Source: Kangiella sp.
GTDB lineage: Bacteria; Pseudomonadota; Gammaproteobacteria; Enterobacterales; Kangiellaceae
DNA length: 62,392 bases
NCBI RefSeq assembly: GCF_014762745.1
Contig: NZ_JABURJ010000102.1
Coordinates: 1-62,392, forward strand
Direction of reading: 5' to 3'
In this document: positions 7,243 through 37,614 of the stretch, piece after piece
Position numbering within the stretch: position 1 is the first letter of the stretch
Layout of the letters: each line of letters begins with the position of its first letter
Made by a program: the position numbers and the translations under genes
The notes under the pieces: generated by a model
Databases searched by the model: none
Seen by the model: the letters and a program-made list of their open reading frames with translations, nothing else
Told to the model about the DNA's origin: nothing

Positions 7243-8022
7243 ATGAAGCAGAATACAGTAAATGCCACCTATGACTTAGATACTATCTTTGTCGTTTGGC
7301 AAGACTCTGTGACTAGGTTGTGGCATCCGATTGGCAAGTTGACACATAAAAACAACTTGTATCGGTTTAATTACACTAGGGGATGTAAAACATCTCCTAG
7401 GTTTAAACCATTCATTCATATGGAACATATTGATTATGTGTATGAATCAGAGTCCTTGTTTCCTTTCTTTGAAAACAGAGTACTTGATCCGAGTAGAGAA
7501 GAATTTAGAGAAATAATTCGGTGGAGTGATATTAAAATTGATTCCGGAGACTTCAACCACTTAGAATTCTTAGCTAAAACTGGAGGGGAAAGGAAGACCG
7601 ACAACTATCGTATCATTCCTTGTCCAAGTAGTGTTGATGGTTACTATGTCATGGATTTTTTTATTCATGGAATAAATTACCTAAATGAAAGTCAAAAAGG
7701 GAAGCTGGAAAAATTGGCTGCTGGAGACGAGTTAGACATGATTTTTGAAGATGAAAACCAAGTCGATCCCATGGCTATATTAATAAAAAAGGATGGTAGT
7801 AAGCTAGGTTATTGTCCTAAATATTTAGCTCACGACTTCAGAGAGGTTATTAATACAGAACAACTTACTGAGAAACACCTTGTTGTTCATAAGGTGAATA
7901 TAGCCGCTCCTGCTAAGTATAAGGTTTTATGTCGCTTTATAACAAAATGGCCAAAAGATTTTGCACCTTTTAATAATCAGGATTATTTAGCTGTAAATAA
8001 TAAGGCACACCTTGTTGCATAA
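7243..8022 (+). CDS. HIRAN-domain protein paired with the HipA-like kinase
   Basis: 259 residues. The C-terminal part (about 138-225) is a HIRAN domain: FFIHGINYL, then a GDELDMIFEDENQ..DPMAI segment and LGYCPKYLAHDF. HIRAN domains bind DNA ends or single-stranded 3' termini in eukaryotic remodellers. The first 100 residues (IFVVWQDSVTRLWHPIGKL, LYRFNYTRG, FPFFENRVLDPSRE) resemble the N-terminal domain of HipA proteins, so HipA may be split here, with its N-domain fused to HIRAN. It is 4 nt from the kinase gene with similar low GC, so the two form a cassette. The function is inferred only from domains; antitoxin or sensor is plausible. Confidence 0.72.
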   Translation: MKQNTVNATYDLDTIFVVWQDSVTRLWHPIGKLTHKNNLYRFNYTRGCKTSPRFKPFIHMEHIDYVYESESLFPFFENRVLDPSREEFREIIRWSDIKIDSGDFNHLEFLAKTGGERKTDNYRIIPCPSSVDGYYVMDFFIHGINYLNESQKGKLEKLAAGDELDMIFEDENQVDPMAILIKKDGSKLGYCPKYLAHDFREVINTEQLTEKHLVVHKVNIAAPAKYKVLCRFITKWPKDFAPFNNQDYLAVNNKAHLVA

Positions 8023-29999: not shown

Positions 30000-30365
30000 G
30001 TTATTGAGTCTAAACTTTGAAACGAATCCTGAAGCTCATTATTGATGTAACCGCTTGAAGGTGACATTATGGCAAAAATTCCGCCCCTAAATTAGAACAG
30101 GCAATGCCCAAAATTATAACAAGCGTCTTGTTCATATTGAGCATATCAACAGCACTGGCCAACTCATGAACAATATTGTAAGAGTTGAAAGAGTCATTTT
30201 ATAAATGAGCAAGCCGATTACGAATTAGTGCTTACTAGAAAGTAGAGTTTGCAATCCTTACTAAGGTGGGCATTTGCAAAACAGCCCCCCACTTATTACT
30301 ATGACCTGAATAACACGAAGAAATATAGCCTGACAGGCTTTATGGATAATTATTCAGGACTACAC
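30000..30365. other. 366-bp non-coding gap
   Basis: The gap between the EAL gene and the next secreted-protein gene is AT-rich. I found no open reading frame, tRNA or strong hairpin. It presumably holds the promoter and leader of the downstream gene. Confidence 0.5.
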
Positions 30366-31943
30366 ATGAAAACTAAATATCTTTTAGCGCTTCTATTGGC
30401 TTTGCCGCTTTGCTCTAACGCGACCTCCGTCATTTTTTCAGATGAGGTACGATTCGACAATTGCAGTACACCCGAAAAAGTTCCTATTGTTTATTGCAAA
30501 GATGGCGATGATAGGGCGATCATTCAGCTTGATGAAAGTAATGCGCTAATGGGAGTCGTTCTTCGTCTGAGAGAGGCCCGCCCATTCTCTGTTAGGTCTG
30601 TAAAGGAAAATGGTACAACAAATTATTACAACCTTCTCAGTGGTGAAATCTACGAAGACATTAATCTTCCTGAATACGAAACACCCACAACTACATTGAA
30701 TAAGCTTATCAATCATGCCAATAGACTTAGCAGCAATATTGAGGCTGCAAAGCAAGATCAGCCGGAGATTGTCAGTGAACTGACTGCTCTACAAGAGCTG
30801 CTTGTTGGTAATGCTCGAAAATTCGCAGGGCAGGTTGCCGGTCCAAGGGAACCTATGTTTTTATTCTCGAAGGGAAATGGTTATCAAGAATGCGAAGAAC
30901 TTACTTACGACACCTGTCCTTTTATGTCCTGTGGTGACAACCATTATCTTTTATTTGATCGCGAAAAAAAGCTCTTTCTGCCTATAAGCTACACTCGAAA
31001 CAGTAAGGGAGAAGCAAAGTTCACTAAAAATGACCCGGAAGCCTTGAAGGTTTGGGGCTTGCTTACAACGTTTATACGATATAACGAAGAGTATAAGCAT
31101 TCTCGCCTTACTAAGGCCCGCAAGGTTCCTGAAAATCTGCAAAATAATGTCACCGCATATTTCACTTTCCAGGATCCAGACTTTAGCGATTACCTTAAAG
31201 AGATCATTCCTAACTGCCCAACAAAGTTCAAAGATGACATCATCTCTCTGGGTGTTCAGACCAATGAAGAGCGGGCTGCAATGCAGTTTGTTCACCTGGT
31301 TGAGAAAGTAAACGCCAAAATCACCAGCCAGTATATAAATAAGGCATTCCTACCCGCTGGCATTCGTCGTAAAGGGAATTCCTATTACACGCACACCGCC
31401 TTGGAAGATATGCCCAAATTTGAACCGGGATCCGTTAAGGCCATATCTGCAAACAAGGCCAAAACGCTTTTCAAAAAAGCTAAGGCAATGAAAAATATGG
31501 CCTGGTCACAACCTCAAGATGGTGCTTTTGCACGTACTGAGCTAATGGTGGATATGTTTGAAAAAGAGGGAGTCATTGCTGATAAGGCTTGGGCCTCAGG
31601 TTTCCTAAAAAGTAAAAAAAATAAAATTCCCTGGAGTTATCATGTGGCACCTGTCGTCTATGTTGAAGGTAGCAGCGGAAACGTTGATAAAATGGTCATT
31701 GACCCTCTAATCGCTGACCGTCCAGTAACAACCCTACAATGGTTATCCTTGATGGGCATTACCAATCCAGACTATCTGGATAATGTTGGATTCCCAGTTC
31801 CATTAGATGCCATGAATATAGGAAGGAATACATTATCCATAACCAACCGTGATGCATTCCACCCGACAGTGGTACAGAATTTTTCAAAAGAGGAAAGGCT
31901 AGAAGAAGCACGCAGAGTACTGGCTAACCTGGAGAAAGGGTAA
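30366..31943 (+). CDS. secreted protein-glutaminase-like protein lacking the catalytic cysteine
   Basis: 525 residues from ATG 30366, chosen because it opens a signal peptide (MKTKYLLALLLALPLCSNA); upstream in-frame starts would bury it. Residues about 30-370 are unrecognised, with several cysteines. Residues about 380-460 match the catalytic region of bacterial protein-glutaminase (the Chryseobacterium enzyme has DGCYARAHKM and WSYHVAILV). Here the block reads DGAFARTELM, then PWSYHVAPVVYVEG and VIDPLIADRPVTTLQW. His426 and Asp446 of the Cys-His-Asp triad are kept, but the nucleophile is Ala387 (codon GCT). It is therefore probably a binding protein or inactive deamidase. The family link is from memory of the motif and needs a structural check. 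Confidence 0.68.
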   Translation: MKTKYLLALLLALPLCSNATSVIFSDEVRFDNCSTPEKVPIVYCKDGDDRAIIQLDESNALMGVVLRLREARPFSVRSVKENGTTNYYNLLSGEIYEDINLPEYETPTTTLNKLINHANRLSSNIEAAKQDQPEIVSELTALQELLVGNARKFAGQVAGPREPMFLFSKGNGYQECEELTYDTCPFMSCGDNHYLLFDREKKLFLPISYTRNSKGEAKFTKNDPEALKVWGLLTTFIRYNEEYKHSRLTKARKVPENLQNNVTAYFTFQDPDFSDYLKEIIPNCPTKFKDDIISLGVQTNEERAAMQFVHLVEKVNAKITSQYINKAFLPAGIRRKGNSYYTHTALEDMPKFEPGSVKAISANKAKTLFKKAKAMKNMAWSQPQDGAFARTELMVDMFEKEGVIADKAWASGFLKSKKNKIPWSYHVAPVVYVEGSSGNVDKMVIDPLIADRPVTTLQWLSLMGITNPDYLDNVGFPVPLDAMNIGRNTLSITNRDAFHPTVVQNFSKEERLEEARRVLANLEKG

Positions 31944-32313: not shown

Positions 32314-33012
32314 TTGGACTGGAAGAAATATCAGGAAAAAACTGCTGAGTATTTTCGATCTCTAGGTTTGGAGGCTAATACTGATATTACTATACAAGGG
32401 GTGAGGACTAAGCATGACATTGATGTATTAGTAAAATCTCACCATGCAGGGTTTGAAGTCATCTGGCTTATTGAGTGCAAGTATTGGAAGTCAAAAGTTA
32501 CTAAGCTTCATGTACTCGCACTACGAGAAATTGTCAATGATACGGGCGCTGATCGTGGAATACTTTTGGCAGAACACGGGTTTCAGAGCGGCGCGAAAGA
32601 GGCGGCAGCCCTTACAAACGTCTATGTTACCTCTCTTGACGATGCAGCGAGTAAAGCTGGCCATGAAATCGACTCAATGAAGTTAATAGAAATATATGAC
32701 AGATTACTTCGGTGCAAAGAAGAATATTGGAAGACTTCTAAGTCAAAGAGAATAGACTGTGGATTACGTCCAAACGTTACTGAAATTGGTTATTCTGGTG
32801 ATTGGGTAATTAAGATCGGAGAGGAACTCATAACAAAAGGCTTGCGTGGTGATTACCCTATTAAGCCAGATGGAATGCATGTATCAATATCTGAGTCAAT
32901 AATTGAACATAAGATTCCAAGAGAAATTGAAAACATTAGAAAACTATTGGCTATTTTGGAGTCGCTAGTTAGGAAACTAGAGCAAAAAATTAGTGCATGT
33001 AAAAAGGTCTAG
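32314..33012 (+). CDS. Mrr-like restriction endonuclease-fold protein
   Basis: 232 residues. The TTG start at 32314 is supported by AAGGAA six nt upstream. The N-terminal 120 residues form a PD-(D/E)xK nuclease domain: YFRSLGLEAN, the active-site aspartates in KHDIDVLV (Asp35/Asp37), and the E54-C-K56 pair in WLIECKYWKSKV. Then come a conserved helix and GILLAEHGFQSGAKEAA. The C-terminal half is unrecognised, with a basic coiled-coil-like end. It is likely a type IV-like nuclease acting on modified or foreign DNA. It heads the AT-rich island with no partner gene overlapping. Confidence 0.75.
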   Translation: MDWKKYQEKTAEYFRSLGLEANTDITIQGVRTKHDIDVLVKSHHAGFEVIWLIECKYWKSKVTKLHVLALREIVNDTGADRGILLAEHGFQSGAKEAAALTNVYVTSLDDAASKAGHEIDSMKLIEIYDRLLRCKEEYWKTSKSKRIDCGLRPNVTEIGYSGDWVIKIGEELITKGLRGDYPIKPDGMHVSISESIIEHKIPREIENIRKLLAILESLVRKLEQKISACKKV

Positions 33013-33198: not shown

Positions 33199-34185
33199 CT
33201 AATCCTCACAATAGTATTTCACTTTCTTACGAAAAACGTAAAATAGGAAGAAAGGTACACTAATGATAAAACTACTAAGCATAGACCACGTTATTATATC
33301 TGGAGATGCGTCTTCTGGAAGCAGCTTATTTTGAATTTGGATTAAAGTTGCTACAAATAAAGCAGGACAAAGCCATAGAGAAAGGTTTCGTCGAGTTTTA
33401 TACCAATTGTATTTATTTTTTTCAGAGCGTGAAAACTTTTCAATTAGGTCAGTAGAATCTGAAAAGGTTTGTTCATCCATGAACTTTTCAAGTCTAAATA
33501 ACCCATTATCGTCAATTTCTTTAAATTTTTTCCTTAGGCTGTTTATTGCTTTACTTTCAAGTTGATTTTTGAAAACGTTCAAAGACAACTTTTTGACAAG
33601 TGCATCTCTCCACCATACTGAAGGTTCTCCTTCATCATCAATATATTTACTCTCATACTTTTCACTATTGTAAGAATCATCAATTTCGCCATAAACAGGC
33701 ATAATGAAAACTTGGCATAGTGGTAAGTAAGGTCTTATATACATCACATTAGGCGTAGAATTTATTAATTCTAGTGGAACATGGCCGGAATATCCGGGGT
33801 TTATGAGATCACAATTGCAAGCCGTTGATAAACCTAATCTAGCATAAGAGCTCCTTGTATTGATTTTGCCAACATATTTATCAGGCATTGATATTTTTTC
33901 GTGAGTCCTTCCTAGAATCATTTCACCAGGTTTCAGTTTTATATACCCGCTGTCTTCTATAACACGTCTTTTCCACAAGCGAGTTGGCGATATTTCGAAA
34001 ATATATCTAGAGCTAAGATCAATAGCTCGTGCTTGTTTTGTCATAACCCAGAATATATTACTAACCCTGATATCGATAGAGCATACTTTAATTTGACTAT
34101 CAGGCTCGAATTTATGTTCAGTGTTTTCTACGTCAGAAATTACTTTCTCAACGACTTTCTTTAGCTCTATGTTTGACAGATACAT
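33199..34185 (-). CDS. dCTP deaminase/dUTPase-fold protein with C-terminal membrane hairpin
   Basis: 328 residues. The N-terminal 170 align with the dCTP deaminase family: SIDIRVSNIF, LKPGEMILGRTHEKISMP, then R111-SSYAR (catalytic Ser/Arg motif), CDLINPGYSG and PLELIN. Glu139 corresponds to the deaminase catalytic glutamate, so activity looks possible. Unlike housekeeping Dcd (about 190 residues), it has a linker (170-260) and two transmembrane segments (about 268-284 and 298-318), which would tether it to the inner membrane. Stand-alone dCTP deaminases are known phage-defence effectors. It diverges from the GTP cyclohydrolase gene, sharing a 161-bp AT-rich promoter region. Base composition is low-GC. 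Confidence 0.75.
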   Translation of the reverse strand: MYLSNIELKKVVEKVISDVENTEHKFEPDSQIKVCSIDIRVSNIFWVMTKQARAIDLSSRYIFEISPTRLWKRRVIEDSGYIKLKPGEMILGRTHEKISMPDKYVGKINTRSSYARLGLSTACNCDLINPGYSGHVPLELINSTPNVMYIRPYLPLCQVFIMPVYGEIDDSYNSEKYESKYIDDEGEPSVWWRDALVKKLSLNVFKNQLESKAINSLRKKFKEIDDNGLFRLEKFMDEQTFSDSTDLIEKFSRSEKNKYNWYKTRRNLSLWLCPALFVATLIQIQNKLLPEDASPDIITWSMLSSFIISVPFFLFYVFRKKVKYYCED

Positions 34186-34214
34186 AATTCGTGAGTAAAC
34201 CTATATTGGAATAG

Positions 34215-34242
34215 TTCGATTAAATGTATCATATACTATAAT
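34215..34242 (+). promoter_or_regulatory. candidate sigma-70 promoter for the cyclohydrolase operon
   Basis: TTCGAT and a consensus TATAAT are separated by 16 bp, about 105 nt before the TTG start of the cyclohydrolase-like gene. It lies within the divergent region shared with the deaminase-like gene. Confidence 0.4.
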
Positions 34243-34346
34243 GTTTTCAATTAGTTAAGTTTTTAAAGTTGTGTTTTATTTAAGGTAAGGTGTTATTATT
34301 GGATAGGTAGGATAATGATTATAACTATAAGTTTAGGAGGGCAAGT

Positions 34347-34913
34347 TTGGAACCGCGAATTATATTACCCACAAAGTATGGAGAGTTTGAAGTATTTTAT
34401 TTTAAAAGATGTGGACAGGAAGGTGCTGTTATATTAAGTCCTTATGATGGAGACTGTCCATTCGTTCGGATACACTCTTCTTGCTTATTTAGTGAATCAT
34501 TAAGAGCAACAAACTGTGATTGTTCCCGTCAATTAGAATCAGCTCTAAGATATATCGGAAATAATGGAGGTGTTGTTTTTTATTTATATCAAGAAGGTAG
34601 AGGGATCGGACTTGAAGATAAAATTAAAGCTATTAGCCTTGAACAAAATGAAGGAGTAAATACGGCTGAGGCTTTCGATAGATTAGGACACCCAAAAGAC
34701 CCAAGAAATTATGACGCGGTTATTTCTATACTCCAAGAATTAAATATAAAAGAAATTTGTATAGGTACGAGCAACCCAAGAAAGGTTGATGCTTTAACAG
34801 ATGCTGGCATTTTTATACGAGATCGAGTTCACTTGATGTTTGAGTCTAATGAAGTGATAGACGAGTATTTAACTAATAAAATCAGGTACTTAGGGCATCA
34901 TGAAAAAAATTGA
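34347..34913 (+). CDS. stand-alone GTP cyclohydrolase II-like enzyme
   Basis: 188 residues; TTG start with a strong TAGGAGGG site. It matches RibA closely: zinc ligands Cys46, Cys57 and Cys59 (SSCLF, NCDCS), the YQEGRGIGL catalytic segment, and TSNPRKVDALTDAGI. GTP cyclohydrolase II opens the guanine imidazole ring of GTP, the first step to riboflavin. The setting is unusual: no riboflavin gene is near, the DNA is AT-rich, and it overlaps an Fe-S HhH protein gene by 14 nt. Active-site residues look intact. Housekeeping RibA duplication is possible, but a nucleotide-modification or defence role fits the context better. Confidence 0.82.
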   Translation: MEPRIILPTKYGEFEVFYFKRCGQEGAVILSPYDGDCPFVRIHSSCLFSESLRATNCDCSRQLESALRYIGNNGGVVFYLYQEGRGIGLEDKIKAISLEQNEGVNTAEAFDRLGHPKDPRNYDAVISILQELNIKEICIGTSNPRKVDALTDAGIFIRDRVHLMFESNEVIDEYLTNKIRYLGHHEKN

Positions 34914-35883
34914 ACAGATTTTGTCAACAGGCAATGCTTTCAAGGTTGATAATATTGCATGTATGCAGCATGCAGAAGTTCTAAAGCACTATCAAAGACC
35001 AGCCGAGTTCTTTACGTGGTCTGATAGATCATTAGAACTACAGTTAGCATTTAAGGTTGCTTTCATTTCTATTTGCCACCAATTTAATTGGGATTTTATG
35101 CAAGCTACCTTAGCAGCAAAACTTCTTAAGCATGAAACGGATTTTGCTGAATACTTATTATCTGTAAAGTCTACCGACTTAAGTGACTGGCTAAAAAAAT
35201 ACCCTAAACAAGAAAGAGTGAGAGCAAAAGAAAGAGCATTTATTTTAAGAGATGTGGGAAAAACCTTGAGCGAGGTTTATGCTGGAAGTTTAGAACGATT
35301 CTATGAGCATTGCTCACGGTCTTTTCTTGATAATTCAAACAATAAACAAGGAGAGAGTTTCCATGAGATTATGGATCAATTTGAGGGCTTTAGAAAAGAT
35401 TCATTAAAAAAGAAAACTAATGTGCTCTCTCATGATTTAATCAAAGAGAATATTGTAAGCTTTGTGGATGAAGAGAACAGCCAACCCGCTATTGATTATC
35501 ATATCATGCGTTTATATATCAGGACGGGCAGGGTTATTCCTACTGATCCCTCTCTTTTTAAATTTTTATCAGGAGCGCCTAACCCGCGAGGAACTTTGGT
35601 GCGTCTGTTAAGAGAAGCTGTTGCCCAAGCAGAACGTTTAACAGCTTACTATTCAGGCTTAAACGTTGCTGACTTGAATTACATCGAGTGGCAAATAGGC
35701 AGAAGCATTTGTAAAAACAAAGCTCCAGTTTGTCAATCTTTAAAATTCCCAAGTGGTTTTCCTGATGACGTTTCTAAGCTATGCGATAATAACTGTCCAT
35801 ACATTGAAATATGTTTATCTTATAATCAAATGTCTGAATTTATCAGCTTTGAAGAACCGCTATATGTATCTACAGATTACTAA
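34900..35883 (+). CDS. HhH-GPD DNA-glycosylase-like protein with Fe-S cysteine cluster
   Basis: 327 residues, overlapping the cyclohydrolase gene by 14 nt. IDYHIMRLYIRTG (Asp199) resembles the catalytic D-x-H-x-x-R segment of endonuclease III-type glycosylases. The C-terminus has C271-x6-C278, then C295-x3-C299-x5-C305, close to the C-x6-C-x2-C-x5-C [4Fe-4S] loop of that family. The first 180 residues are helical and unrecognised. The canonical Lys/HhH hairpin (LPGVG-type) is not obvious, so the assignment is by the Asp segment and the cysteine pattern and stays tentative. Co-translation with a GTP ring-opening enzyme suggests a shared modified-guanine or DNA-repair theme. Confidence 0.55.
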   Translation: MKKIEQILSTGNAFKVDNIACMQHAEVLKHYQRPAEFFTWSDRSLELQLAFKVAFISICHQFNWDFMQATLAAKLLKHETDFAEYLLSVKSTDLSDWLKKYPKQERVRAKERAFILRDVGKTLSEVYAGSLERFYEHCSRSFLDNSNNKQGESFHEIMDQFEGFRKDSLKKKTNVLSHDLIKENIVSFVDEENSQPAIDYHIMRLYIRTGRVIPTDPSLFKFLSGAPNPRGTLVRLLREAVAQAERLTAYYSGLNVADLNYIEWQIGRSICKNKAPVCQSLKFPSGFPDDVSKLCDNNCPYIEICLSYNQMSEFISFEEPLYVSTDY

Positions 35884-35896
35884 AAATAACTAAAGG

Positions 35897-37195
35897 TTAT
35901 TTTTCAAAATAAACAACATCTTCGCTAGCTTTCTTCTTTAACTTTTGTTTCTGGTGACTTGGGTTTAGCTGCCGCATATTAATTTTGACTTCACTTTTCT
36001 TTAATACATTAGCAGTAAACCCAATAGACTCTAGCATTTCTACTGCTATGCAACTTAAAGGGATATGAAGATCTTTATAGAAGGAATCTTGAAGTACAAT
36101 TAGCCCCTTGGCATTTCTTTTCATTAACCGATAAATATTGTTAAAAGTTTCGTATAGGGATGAGAAATATTGATAGTAAGTCCAAATGTAATAGCTTTCA
36201 CTCGCATAGCTATCATGAGATCTTATTTTGTTTAGTATATCTAAACATTTCTTGCCCCATAAAACTTCAAAGTCCCCCTTTTGTACAATTTTTGGAGTTC
36301 CGATCATTTTTTTTCGGAGTTCATCGATATTTATTGGAATCAAGCCACTTAAGATAGCAAGGTTTGGTAAATGTTTGACTACATAGTCGATACGAGTTAA
36401 ATATGGCGGTGAAGTGATGATAAAGTCAGCAATACCTTCTTGTATATTTAAGCTGTTGTCTTTTACATCATAATTAATCAGTTTTACATGACTGTTTCTA
36501 GGAGTTATTTGTGTCAAGTCTTCTAATATCTTTTTTGATGCTTGGATAGTTGCTTTGTATAACGCCTCAAAGTTATCCTTTTCTCCTTCTACTGCCTTTC
36601 TAAACCAAGTAGGGTTGGAGCCTCTTACTAAATTAGCAGATTCAGAGGCACCTATGCAGAGAGCTACTAAAGCTACAGTTGCTGAGTCAAAGGTACCTTG
36701 GGTGTCATTTAGTAATGTGTGAAACACTTTTGATTGCTTAACACCAATAGCCCTGCTTAATCGTGTAAATACGGTTGATGCATAGCACAAACACTCATTA
36801 TCAAATATGTTATAAGCTTCACTACAAAATGTTTTAAGTGATTTAGTTCTTTTAGAAGCGCGTAACAATTTATGCACTTCTTTGTGATTGGCATTGAGTG
36901 ATACTTTCGCTTTAGATAAAAGACAAGAGAAAGGGTCTACATCAATTCCAATTGTAGTAACATTTGCTTTATATCCAGATACCACTGTTGTCCCTGAGCC
37001 TACAAATGGATCTAGTAGCGTTTGGTCGTGATTTATCCCTAAAGCTTTTATTGCATGATTAACAAATGACTCAGAGAAAGAGGCATAAAAATTAGTCCAA
37101 GAATGAACTCCTACTTTATCCTCTTTTTTTACTTTTGCTGATGGCAATGTGTTGAGAGTGTAGTCATCCTGCAAAATTGAAAGTTGTTTTGTCAT
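35897..37195 (-). CDS. DNA amino-methyltransferase (N4-cytosine or N6-adenine)
   Basis: About 432 residues from the ATG at 37193-37195 (MTKQLSILQDDYTLNTLP). A GTG at 37252 would add 19 residues; the true start is unsure because both sites have weak spacing. AdoMet motif I is DPFVGSGTT (Asp62), followed by GIDVDPFSCLLSKAK. The catalytic motif IV is TSPPYLTRIDYV. The I-before-IV order fits the gamma/alpha-type layout. The target site cannot be read from sequence. It converges on the HhH gene with 13 nt between stops. There is no cognate restriction gene next door, but an Mrr-like nuclease lies 3 kb away in the same island. Confidence 0.82.
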   Translation of the reverse strand: MTKQLSILQDDYTLNTLPSAKVKKEDKVGVHSWTNFYASFSESFVNHAIKALGINHDQTLLDPFVGSGTTVVSGYKANVTTIGIDVDPFSCLLSKAKVSLNANHKEVHKLLRASKRTKSLKTFCSEAYNIFDNECLCYASTVFTRLSRAIGVKQSKVFHTLLNDTQGTFDSATVALVALCIGASESANLVRGSNPTWFRKAVEGEKDNFEALYKATIQASKKILEDLTQITPRNSHVKLINYDVKDNSLNIQEGIADFIITSPPYLTRIDYVVKHLPNLAILSGLIPINIDELRKKMIGTPKIVQKGDFEVLWGKKCLDILNKIRSHDSYASESYYIWTYYQYFSSLYETFNNIYRLMKRNAKGLIVLQDSFYKDLHIPLSCIAVEMLESIGFTANVLKKSEVKINMRQLNPSHQKQKLKKKASEDVVYFEK

Positions 37196-37407
37196 TTTCC
37201 CATAATCTAATGCATGAAATAAAATATATAGTATATGTCTAATAATAGACACCTTATGCTTTTAGGATTATACCGACTATTTTTAAATAGTCATCAAGGG
37301 TAGCCTTGCTAAACATCTCAATATATTAAAGAGATATATTGAGCTTTAGACATTAATGTGATTTGTTTCTAATTAAATAGCTTTTCAACCGTAGAATCAC
37401 TATAAAA

Positions 37408-37443
37408 TGGTGAGCCCGCCGAGACTTGAACTAGGGACCTGCC
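37408..37443 (-). pseudogene. decayed 3' end of a tRNA gene (T-arm, acceptor and CCA)
   Basis: 36 nt on the minus strand match the last third of the intact tRNA-Ile2 at 37538-37614 with about six changes, including the shared AGTTCAAGTCT T-loop and the terminal CACCA. The acceptor and T-stem pairing partners are missing and nothing upstream folds into a full cloverleaf. It lies about 95 nt beyond the intact gene, between it and the AT-rich island, in the same orientation. It could be an attachment-site scar or a degraded tandem tRNA copy. Confidence 0.6.
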
Positions 37444-37537: not shown

Positions 37538-37614
37538 TGGTGGGCCTTCCCAGACTTGAACTGGGGACCTACCGATTATGAGTCGGGTGCTCTAACCAAC
37601 TGAGCTAAAGGCCC
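37538..37614 (-). tRNA. tRNA-Ile2 or tRNA-Met with CAU anticodon
   Basis: 77 nt with encoded CCA. The acceptor is GGGCCTT, the D-arm GCTCAGTTGGTTAGAGC, the anticodon loop CTCATAA (anticodon CAU), and the T-loop AGTTCAAGTCT. The anticodon arm CGACTCATAATCG matches the minor isoleucine tRNA whose C34 is modified to lysidine. Its position just downstream of rpoD mirrors E. coli ileX. Elongator Met is the alternative. Confidence 0.85.

Follow-up and report, generated by a model that had tools for sequence, protein, structure and literature searches.

A recurrent gene cassette with a possible defence role in Kangiella, combining a Qng1-like HhH protein, a DNA methyltransferase and exchangeable nucleotide enzymes

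In a contig of Kangiella sp. (NZ_JABURJ010000102.1, assembly GCF_014762745.1; its full 62,392 nt are hereafter called the window), four open reading frames (ORFs) spanning 33199-37252 sit between chaB and a tRNA-Met gene, which they adjoin according to the ORF map and the tRNA search. They encode a predicted dCTP deaminase, a GTP-cyclohydrolase-II-like (RibA-like) protein, a helix-hairpin-helix (HhH) protein most like the queuosine-5'-monophosphate N-glycosidase Qng1, and a DNA methyltransferase (MT) (Table 1). A first-pass annotation, made from the sequence alone, had described four AT-rich genes beside a tRNA with a 14-nt cyclohydrolase/HhH overlap, a divergent deaminase gene and a convergent methyltransferase gene, and this layout was confirmed. 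The G+C content is 0.340 for the deaminase gene, 0.347 for the RibA-like, 0.360 for the HhH and 0.339 for the MT gene, against 0.448 for the whole window (34-36% versus 44.8%); the overlap covers 34900-34913; and in the ORF map the deaminase gene is divergent from the RibA-HhH pair and the MT gene convergent on it. The promoter that the RibA and HhH genes had been proposed to share was not borne out, as a consensus scan stayed at chance level (16 found, 18.3 expected). An Rfam search gave nothing beyond the tRNA.

Table 1. The four-gene cassette and its tRNA-Met border (positions in the window)
Feature	Position	Strand	Remarks
dCTP-deaminase-like gene	33199..34185	-	328 aa; TIGR02274
Divergent intergenic region, deaminase versus RibA/HhH genes	34186..34346	.	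161 bp
GTP-cyclohydrolase-II-like (RibA-like) gene	34347..34913	+	188 aa, TTG start; PF00925
Qng1-like HhH gene, presumed N-glycosidase	34900..35883	+	327 aa; alignments, fold
DNA methyltransferase gene (MT)	35897..37252	-	GTG start; PADLOC MTase_II
Partial tRNA-Met copy	37404..37443	-	40 nt, 85%, one tRNA end; 130 nt from intact gene
tRNA-Met	37538-37614	-	

The four genes are not a chance group, because Marinobacter has all four, a deltaproteobacterium three, and Vicinamibacteria and Bradyrhizobium the HhH-MT pair. These relatives come from a scan of 84,980 species genomes with patterns taken from the HhH protein, by which distant copies will be missed; its 17 candidate stretches gave six loci (L004-L009), which were aligned with the window as seven loci, the window proteins being compared at E 1e-3. 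In Marinobacter (L004) relatives of all four proteins lie within 4 kb, at 46-55% identity, the deaminase gene lying on the opposite side of the block, and the deltaproteobacterium (L006) has RibA, HhH and MT, so that the co-occurrence elsewhere which the first-pass annotation had proposed to look for does exist. In the Vicinamibacteria (L005) and Bradyrhizobium (L007) loci a TauD-type oxygenase takes the place of RibA, and in the two remaining loci (L008, 93-2102; L009, 4776-7091) the HhH protein is fused to a DUF362 domain. HhH and MT genes stand tail to tail in five of the seven loci, the window included, separated by -4 to +13 nt. RibA is present in 3/7 and the deaminase in 2/7; the four-family system that had been suggested recurs, with the deaminase as its least conserved member. 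No MT orthologue was recognised in the genomes of L008, which lies at a contig end (only two short, weak matches to the MT profile), and L009 (none), both metagenome-assembled.

Two observations concern individual loci. In L004 the RibA-like frame (7449-8011) is broken and the three partner genes are intact, possibly reflecting a recent loss or an assembly error. A further stretch, L072 (5360-7219), encodes a fusion between a PfkB-family kinase and an HhH domain that resembles Q_salvage and has clustered cysteines, a possible nucleoside-salvage relative; no MT orthologue was found beside it.

The proteins encoded upstream of the core vary as well. In L005, L007 and L009 they have homologous TPR regions and differing N-terminal parts. 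The part in L007 is an alpha/beta hydrolase that matches LmuA of Lamassu (E=2.5e-13), a likeness between a cassette-linked protein and a known defence system; the part in L009, in a phosphoesterase-STAND-TPR protein that precedes the DUF362-HhH fusion, is a metallophosphoesterase plus a STAND-like domain (PDC-S60, E=3.1e-32; effector model, E=1.5e-22); and the part in L005 could be assigned to no family and had no PADLOC match. The STAND-TPR protein of L006 has no detectable relation to the other TPR proteins at E 0.01 and gives a weak mad8 match (E=6.4e-4). Neither the window cassette nor the Marinobacter block was found to have a TPR protein; in both, the deaminase is the extra gene. We infer that the variable upstream proteins and the deaminase are alternative effectors.

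The HhH protein matches Q_salvage (PF10343) below the gathering score (E=0.0011; 19.1 versus 25 bits). The family is matched at E up to 1 in five of the seven members (best E 0.00024), and the L072 fusion passes the cut-off. A structure model, itself weak (pLDDT 61, pTM 0.51), has a fold closest to DUF2419 structures and also gives DNA-glycosylase-superfamily matches. Lys171, Asp199, Asn260 and Trp264 correspond in position, exactly or nearly, to Qng1 Lys199, Asp231, Asp298 and Trp302. Of the catalytic Qng1 residues Asp231 and Lys199, an Asp is aligned at position 231 by HMMER and by both MAFFT modes, and a Lys at position 199 by HMMER and MAFFT localpair, not by genafpair. Asp298 and Trp302 are named as residues of the Qng1 active site in PMC11592518. 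The D-x3-W pair, whose identity with residues 298 and 302 rests on the spacing of 4, is aligned in four Qng1-like rows; in the cassette the Trp is kept and the Asp is replaced by Asn in 7/7 members, and L072 has Asp and Phe. By its fold, a collinear profile match, Asp at D231 and Trp at the presumed W302, with an alignment-dependent Lys at K199, the protein is most like Qng1 (DUF2419), and we presume N-glycosidase activity. Unlike Qng1, it has four Fe-S-like cysteines, Asn at the presumed D298, a sub-threshold PF10343 score and linkage to an MT.

The first-pass annotation had called this protein Fe-S HhH-like. Four C-terminal cysteines (C271-x6-C278-x20-C299-x5-C305), invariant in 7/7 homologues, and the glycosylase-superfamily matches of the weak model agree with that call, and an Fe-S cluster is putative. 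Their middle spacing (x20 in the window protein) varies among the homologues, in contrast to the C-x6-C-x2-C-x5-C of endonuclease III, and the glycine-rich hairpin of endonuclease III, MutY and AGOG was not seen in the HhH protein. The window protein had no PF00730 match at E up to 1, nor was this family among the five matched by the seven members, and a plain endonuclease III was rejected on this ground; comparing profiles with seven Nth proteins of related genomes did not help to decide (probability 0.1-6.3%).

The other three family calls of the annotation (dCTP deaminase, GTP cyclohydrolase II, DNA methyltransferase) hold, with matches to TIGR02274, PF00925 and MTase_II. The RibA-like protein matches PF00925 at E=2.1e-39 and passes the NF001591 RibA subfamily model (160.2 versus 148 bits), but does not reach the TIGR00505 equivalog (152.1 versus 205.85 bits). 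It keeps the three Zn cysteines and Arg128 of RibA, and differs in having Ile in place of Tyr105 (E. coli numbering) and one inserted residue nearby; the cassette contains no further recognisable riboflavin gene. Ile stands at the Tyr105 position in all three cassette RibAs (in L004 by the 3' piece alone); the window and L006 proteins keep the cysteines and the Arg, and the cysteine stretch of L004 lies in the other piece of its broken frame. As a reference we used 31 RibA domains, namely L002 and 30 loci of best-scoring matches from 80 genomes: 20/31 keep all three Zn cysteines, and all 20 have the Tyr. The window protein is not the only ribA product of its genome, a point that the annotation had named for checking, since a canonical ribA is present elsewhere; together with the lost catalytic Tyr, this led us to reject a riboflavin paralogue. 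A further genomic PF00925 copy, RibBA-like (L002, 1486-2613), is without all three Zn cysteines, and the full Zn site is missing from 10 of the other 30 reference domains too.

A Streptomyces RibA homologue with Met at the Tyr105 position, where the cassette has Ile, reportedly makes a formylated, ring-opened nucleotide, formamidopyrimidine (FAPy), and not the riboflavin precursor. Going by this precedent and the one residue change, the RibA-like protein would stop at ring-opened FAPy-GMP. If the precedent applies, the product is the 5'-monophosphate of a ring-opened guanine, which the Qng1-like enzyme could take. The annotation had proposed a ring-opening enzyme with a glycosylase-like partner, and the Tyr105-to-Ile change and the relationship to Qng1 strengthen that idea; "DNA glycosylase" is perhaps too narrow a term, since the substrate of the nearest known enzyme is a free nucleotide.

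The deaminase passes the TIGR02274 equivalog cut-off (107.5 versus 92.8 bits) and, in a PDB alignment, keeps the Glu138 position of E. coli Dcd, which has the trimeric dUTPase fold. This fold differs from that of the cytidine-deaminase-type dCTP deaminases of phage defence. Glu139 is kept, and Asn stands at the Asp128 position in both members, the window protein and its 51% identical Marinobacter relative (L004). Unlike Dcd, the cassette protein has a C-terminal extension of about 135 residues, by which it may be membrane-anchored: a simple hydropathy scan gave one hydrophobic segment over threshold in each protein, at different places (297-318 in the window, 268-286 in L004). The C-terminal part of the Marinobacter protein had no NCBIfam match.

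The MT, of the N6_N4 class with DPFVGSGT and TSPPY motifs, matches PADLOC MTase_II over nearly its full length (E=1.5e-27) and phrog_18146 (E=7e-22). The in-frame ATG at 37195 (protein start MTKQLS...), the end position given by the first-pass annotation, lies near the onset of similarity among MT homologues and is a likelier start than the GTG at 37252. The MT's best plasmid relative, 27% identical, lies beside DUF262 and HEPN-nuclease genes on a Roseomonas plasmid, which we take as a defence-type context. That region (L074, 5983-9590) encodes the DNA methyltransferase, DUF262 and a MAE_28990/MAE_18760 HEPN-like nuclease, followed by an integrase on the other strand. These matches recall type II restriction-modification and DUF262/HEPN systems; in contrast to type II systems, family searches found no restriction endonuclease among the four cassette genes, which have a presumed glycosidase and small-molecule enzymes instead. 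The annotation had not recognised a named system, and PADLOC 2.0.0 agrees, leaving the deaminase, RibA-like and HhH proteins unmatched at E up to 0.1.

We interpret the cassette as foreign cargo occupying a variable slot, because genomes of the same genus carry different genes at the chaB/tRNA site. In three of six same-genus stretches (L023, L024 and L025) both chaB and the tRNA-rpoD side were found, with 1.5-3.6 kb of other genes between them, including in L024 a Sll1717-family ATPase; in the other three (L026-L028) the rpoD side was matched and the chaB side was not. The interval is about 5.3 kb in the window and consists of a Mrr-like gene and the four cassette genes. The HhH gene is rare: it was found in 1/119 related genomes, its own, and in wider searches in 1/369 genomes of the class, 1/345, 1/242 and 2/297, where every count includes the seed genome, the 119- and 369-genome sets overlap and the genus Marinobacter is left out. 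The MT at E 1e-20 was found in 1/274 genomes, again its own.

A phage or plasmid origin was considered and rejected. The HhH protein had no match in phages or plasmids, and none of 19 HhH-pattern stretches in viral contigs had a relative. For the MT the viral contigs gave one phage-like orphan (L059, 26%), and relatives at 23% occur in two Haloarcula virus records. The extended deaminase gave no match in the viral contigs, and none of the 51 plasmid records that it matched was covered over >80% of length.

Recurrence, module exchange, the island setting and the linked defence-type effectors make a defence role for the cassette likely. Building on the gene content, recurrence, module exchange and conserved residues, all observed directly, we tentatively propose (probability roughly 0.3) a horizontally moving, modular, defence-type cassette in which the RibA-Qng1-like pair attacks guanine nucleotides, the deaminase helps and the MT gives self-recognition. 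The commonest core would be the Qng1-like HhH/Fe-S N-glycosidase with the DNA methyltransferase. The base handled by the glycosidase would be supplied or prepared by an exchangeable enzyme, which is RibA-like here and TauD-like or DUF362 in other loci, and an exchangeable effector, here a probably membrane-anchored dCTP deaminase, would complete the cassette. As its family and the tail-to-tail pairing suggest, the MT would mark host DNA, separating self from invader. On infection, the RibA-like enzyme would open the imidazole ring of GTP and, without the catalytic Tyr, stop at FAPy-GMP. The Qng1-like enzyme, judging from its fold and kept residues, would then hydrolyse the N-glycosidic bond of FAPy-GMP, making the loss irreversible or releasing the base as a signal. 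Finally, the deaminase would remove dCTP, so that phage replication would be starved of guanine nucleotides and dCTP.

Several results weigh against this proposal. RibA is absent from L005, L007, L008 and L009, so the ring-opening step cannot be universal, and its frame is broken in Marinobacter. The deaminase is restricted to two loci, MT orthologues are missing from the L008 and L009 genomes and beside L072, and three of the four window proteins are unmatched in PADLOC. Among the 11 reference RibAs without a full Zn site, eight have Tyr, one Phe, one Ile and one His. As for the Qng1 relationship, no Foldseek row reaches E 0.001 for the HhH model, and a VIA Z in the observed range can reflect a common helical arrangement. 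The seven-row HhH profile gave Qng1 only E=0.2, with a surely unrelated lipocalin scoring better at 0.028. Profile-profile comparison with five rows meant as Qng1 was weak (probability 1-7.5%, E 0.005-0.05), and one of these rows, L076, was the wrong ORF and was left out of the later residue alignment. Finally, the HhH cysteines resemble those of DNA glycosylases, a likeness that favours DNA, not a free nucleotide, as the substrate.

The last point fits restriction-modification, in which the MT would protect host sites and the HhH/Fe-S protein, as a glycosylase, would excise the unmodified base from invading DNA and leave abasic sites, with RibA, TauD, DUF362 and the effectors as accessories. 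However, the closest relative in fold and sequence, Qng1, acts on a mononucleotide (PMC11592518). The lack of a PF00730 match and of MT orthologues in the L008 and L009 genomes also argues against excision from DNA, which would leave the exchangeable small-molecule enzymes unexplained; we regard it as rather unlikely, though a serious rival. A second serious rival is modelled on CBASS or Thoeris: together with the Qng1-like protein, the exchangeable enzyme could produce a signal, either a base or a nucleotide, to activate an exchangeable effector (hydrolase-TPR, phosphoesterase-STAND-TPR or deaminase). This agrees with the alternative chemistries found in one slot and with the homologous TPR regions that have differing N-terminal parts, two of which (L007, L009) match defence effector models. 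However, the window and Marinobacter cassettes have no TPR protein, that of L006 is not detectably related to the others, and we know of no glycosidase acting as a signal synthase; signalling of this kind appears quite unlikely. Each enzyme also has a metabolic relative, and the PfkB-glycosidase fusion of L072 looks like nucleoside salvage; yet ordinary salvage or accessory metabolism travelling on islands with no defence role is improbable, given the canonical ribA already in the genome, the pairing with a DNA methyltransferase, the linked defence effector domains, the rarity and the AT-rich island. Least probable is a pathway to a hypermodified DNA or RNA base, with the RibA-like enzyme making a ring-opened guanine, the glycosidase freeing or exchanging it and the MT finishing it: all parts do base chemistry and Qng1 belongs to modified-guanine metabolism, but no base-insertion enzyme was recognised among the neighbours scanned, the MT carries DNA-methyltransferase motifs, and RibA is present in 3/7 loci only.

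Each part comes from a known family, and defence systems linked to methyltransferases are already known, but the combination appears undescribed: no paper among those that the literature searches listed reports the four genes together. Returning to the proposed attack on guanine nucleotides, a more novel form of it would be a new immune chemistry: the guanine ring would be opened to give a FAPy nucleotide, and its cleavage by a Qng1-derived Fe-S glycosidase, under the control of DNA methylation, would either starve the phage or provide a signal; this we consider unlikely. The TauD, DUF362 and PfkB partners would then be parallel branches using other altered bases. To our knowledge, the queuosine-salvage enzyme fold is known only from micronutrient recycling, and the proposal, if true, would bring it into bacterial conflict. 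In the cassette, both the chemistry and the effectors around a recurring core are exchangeable; in other defence systems, arrangements of this kind have led to signalling pathways.

The borders of the cassette hold further features. The partial tRNA-Met copy is a possible attachment-site remnant at the cargo edge; among the six same-genus stretches it is matched in four, inside the tRNA alignment only, and in two not at all. Adjoining the cassette on the chaB side is a Mrr-type restriction endonuclease-like gene (32314-33012, + strand; PF04471, E=1.4e-12; 39% G+C), which has no relative in the L004-L009 loci. The gene at 30249-31943 (+ strand) encodes a C-terminal protein-glutaminase domain (PF18626, E=6.8e-21), and its DNA is also found near chaB in three same-genus genomes.

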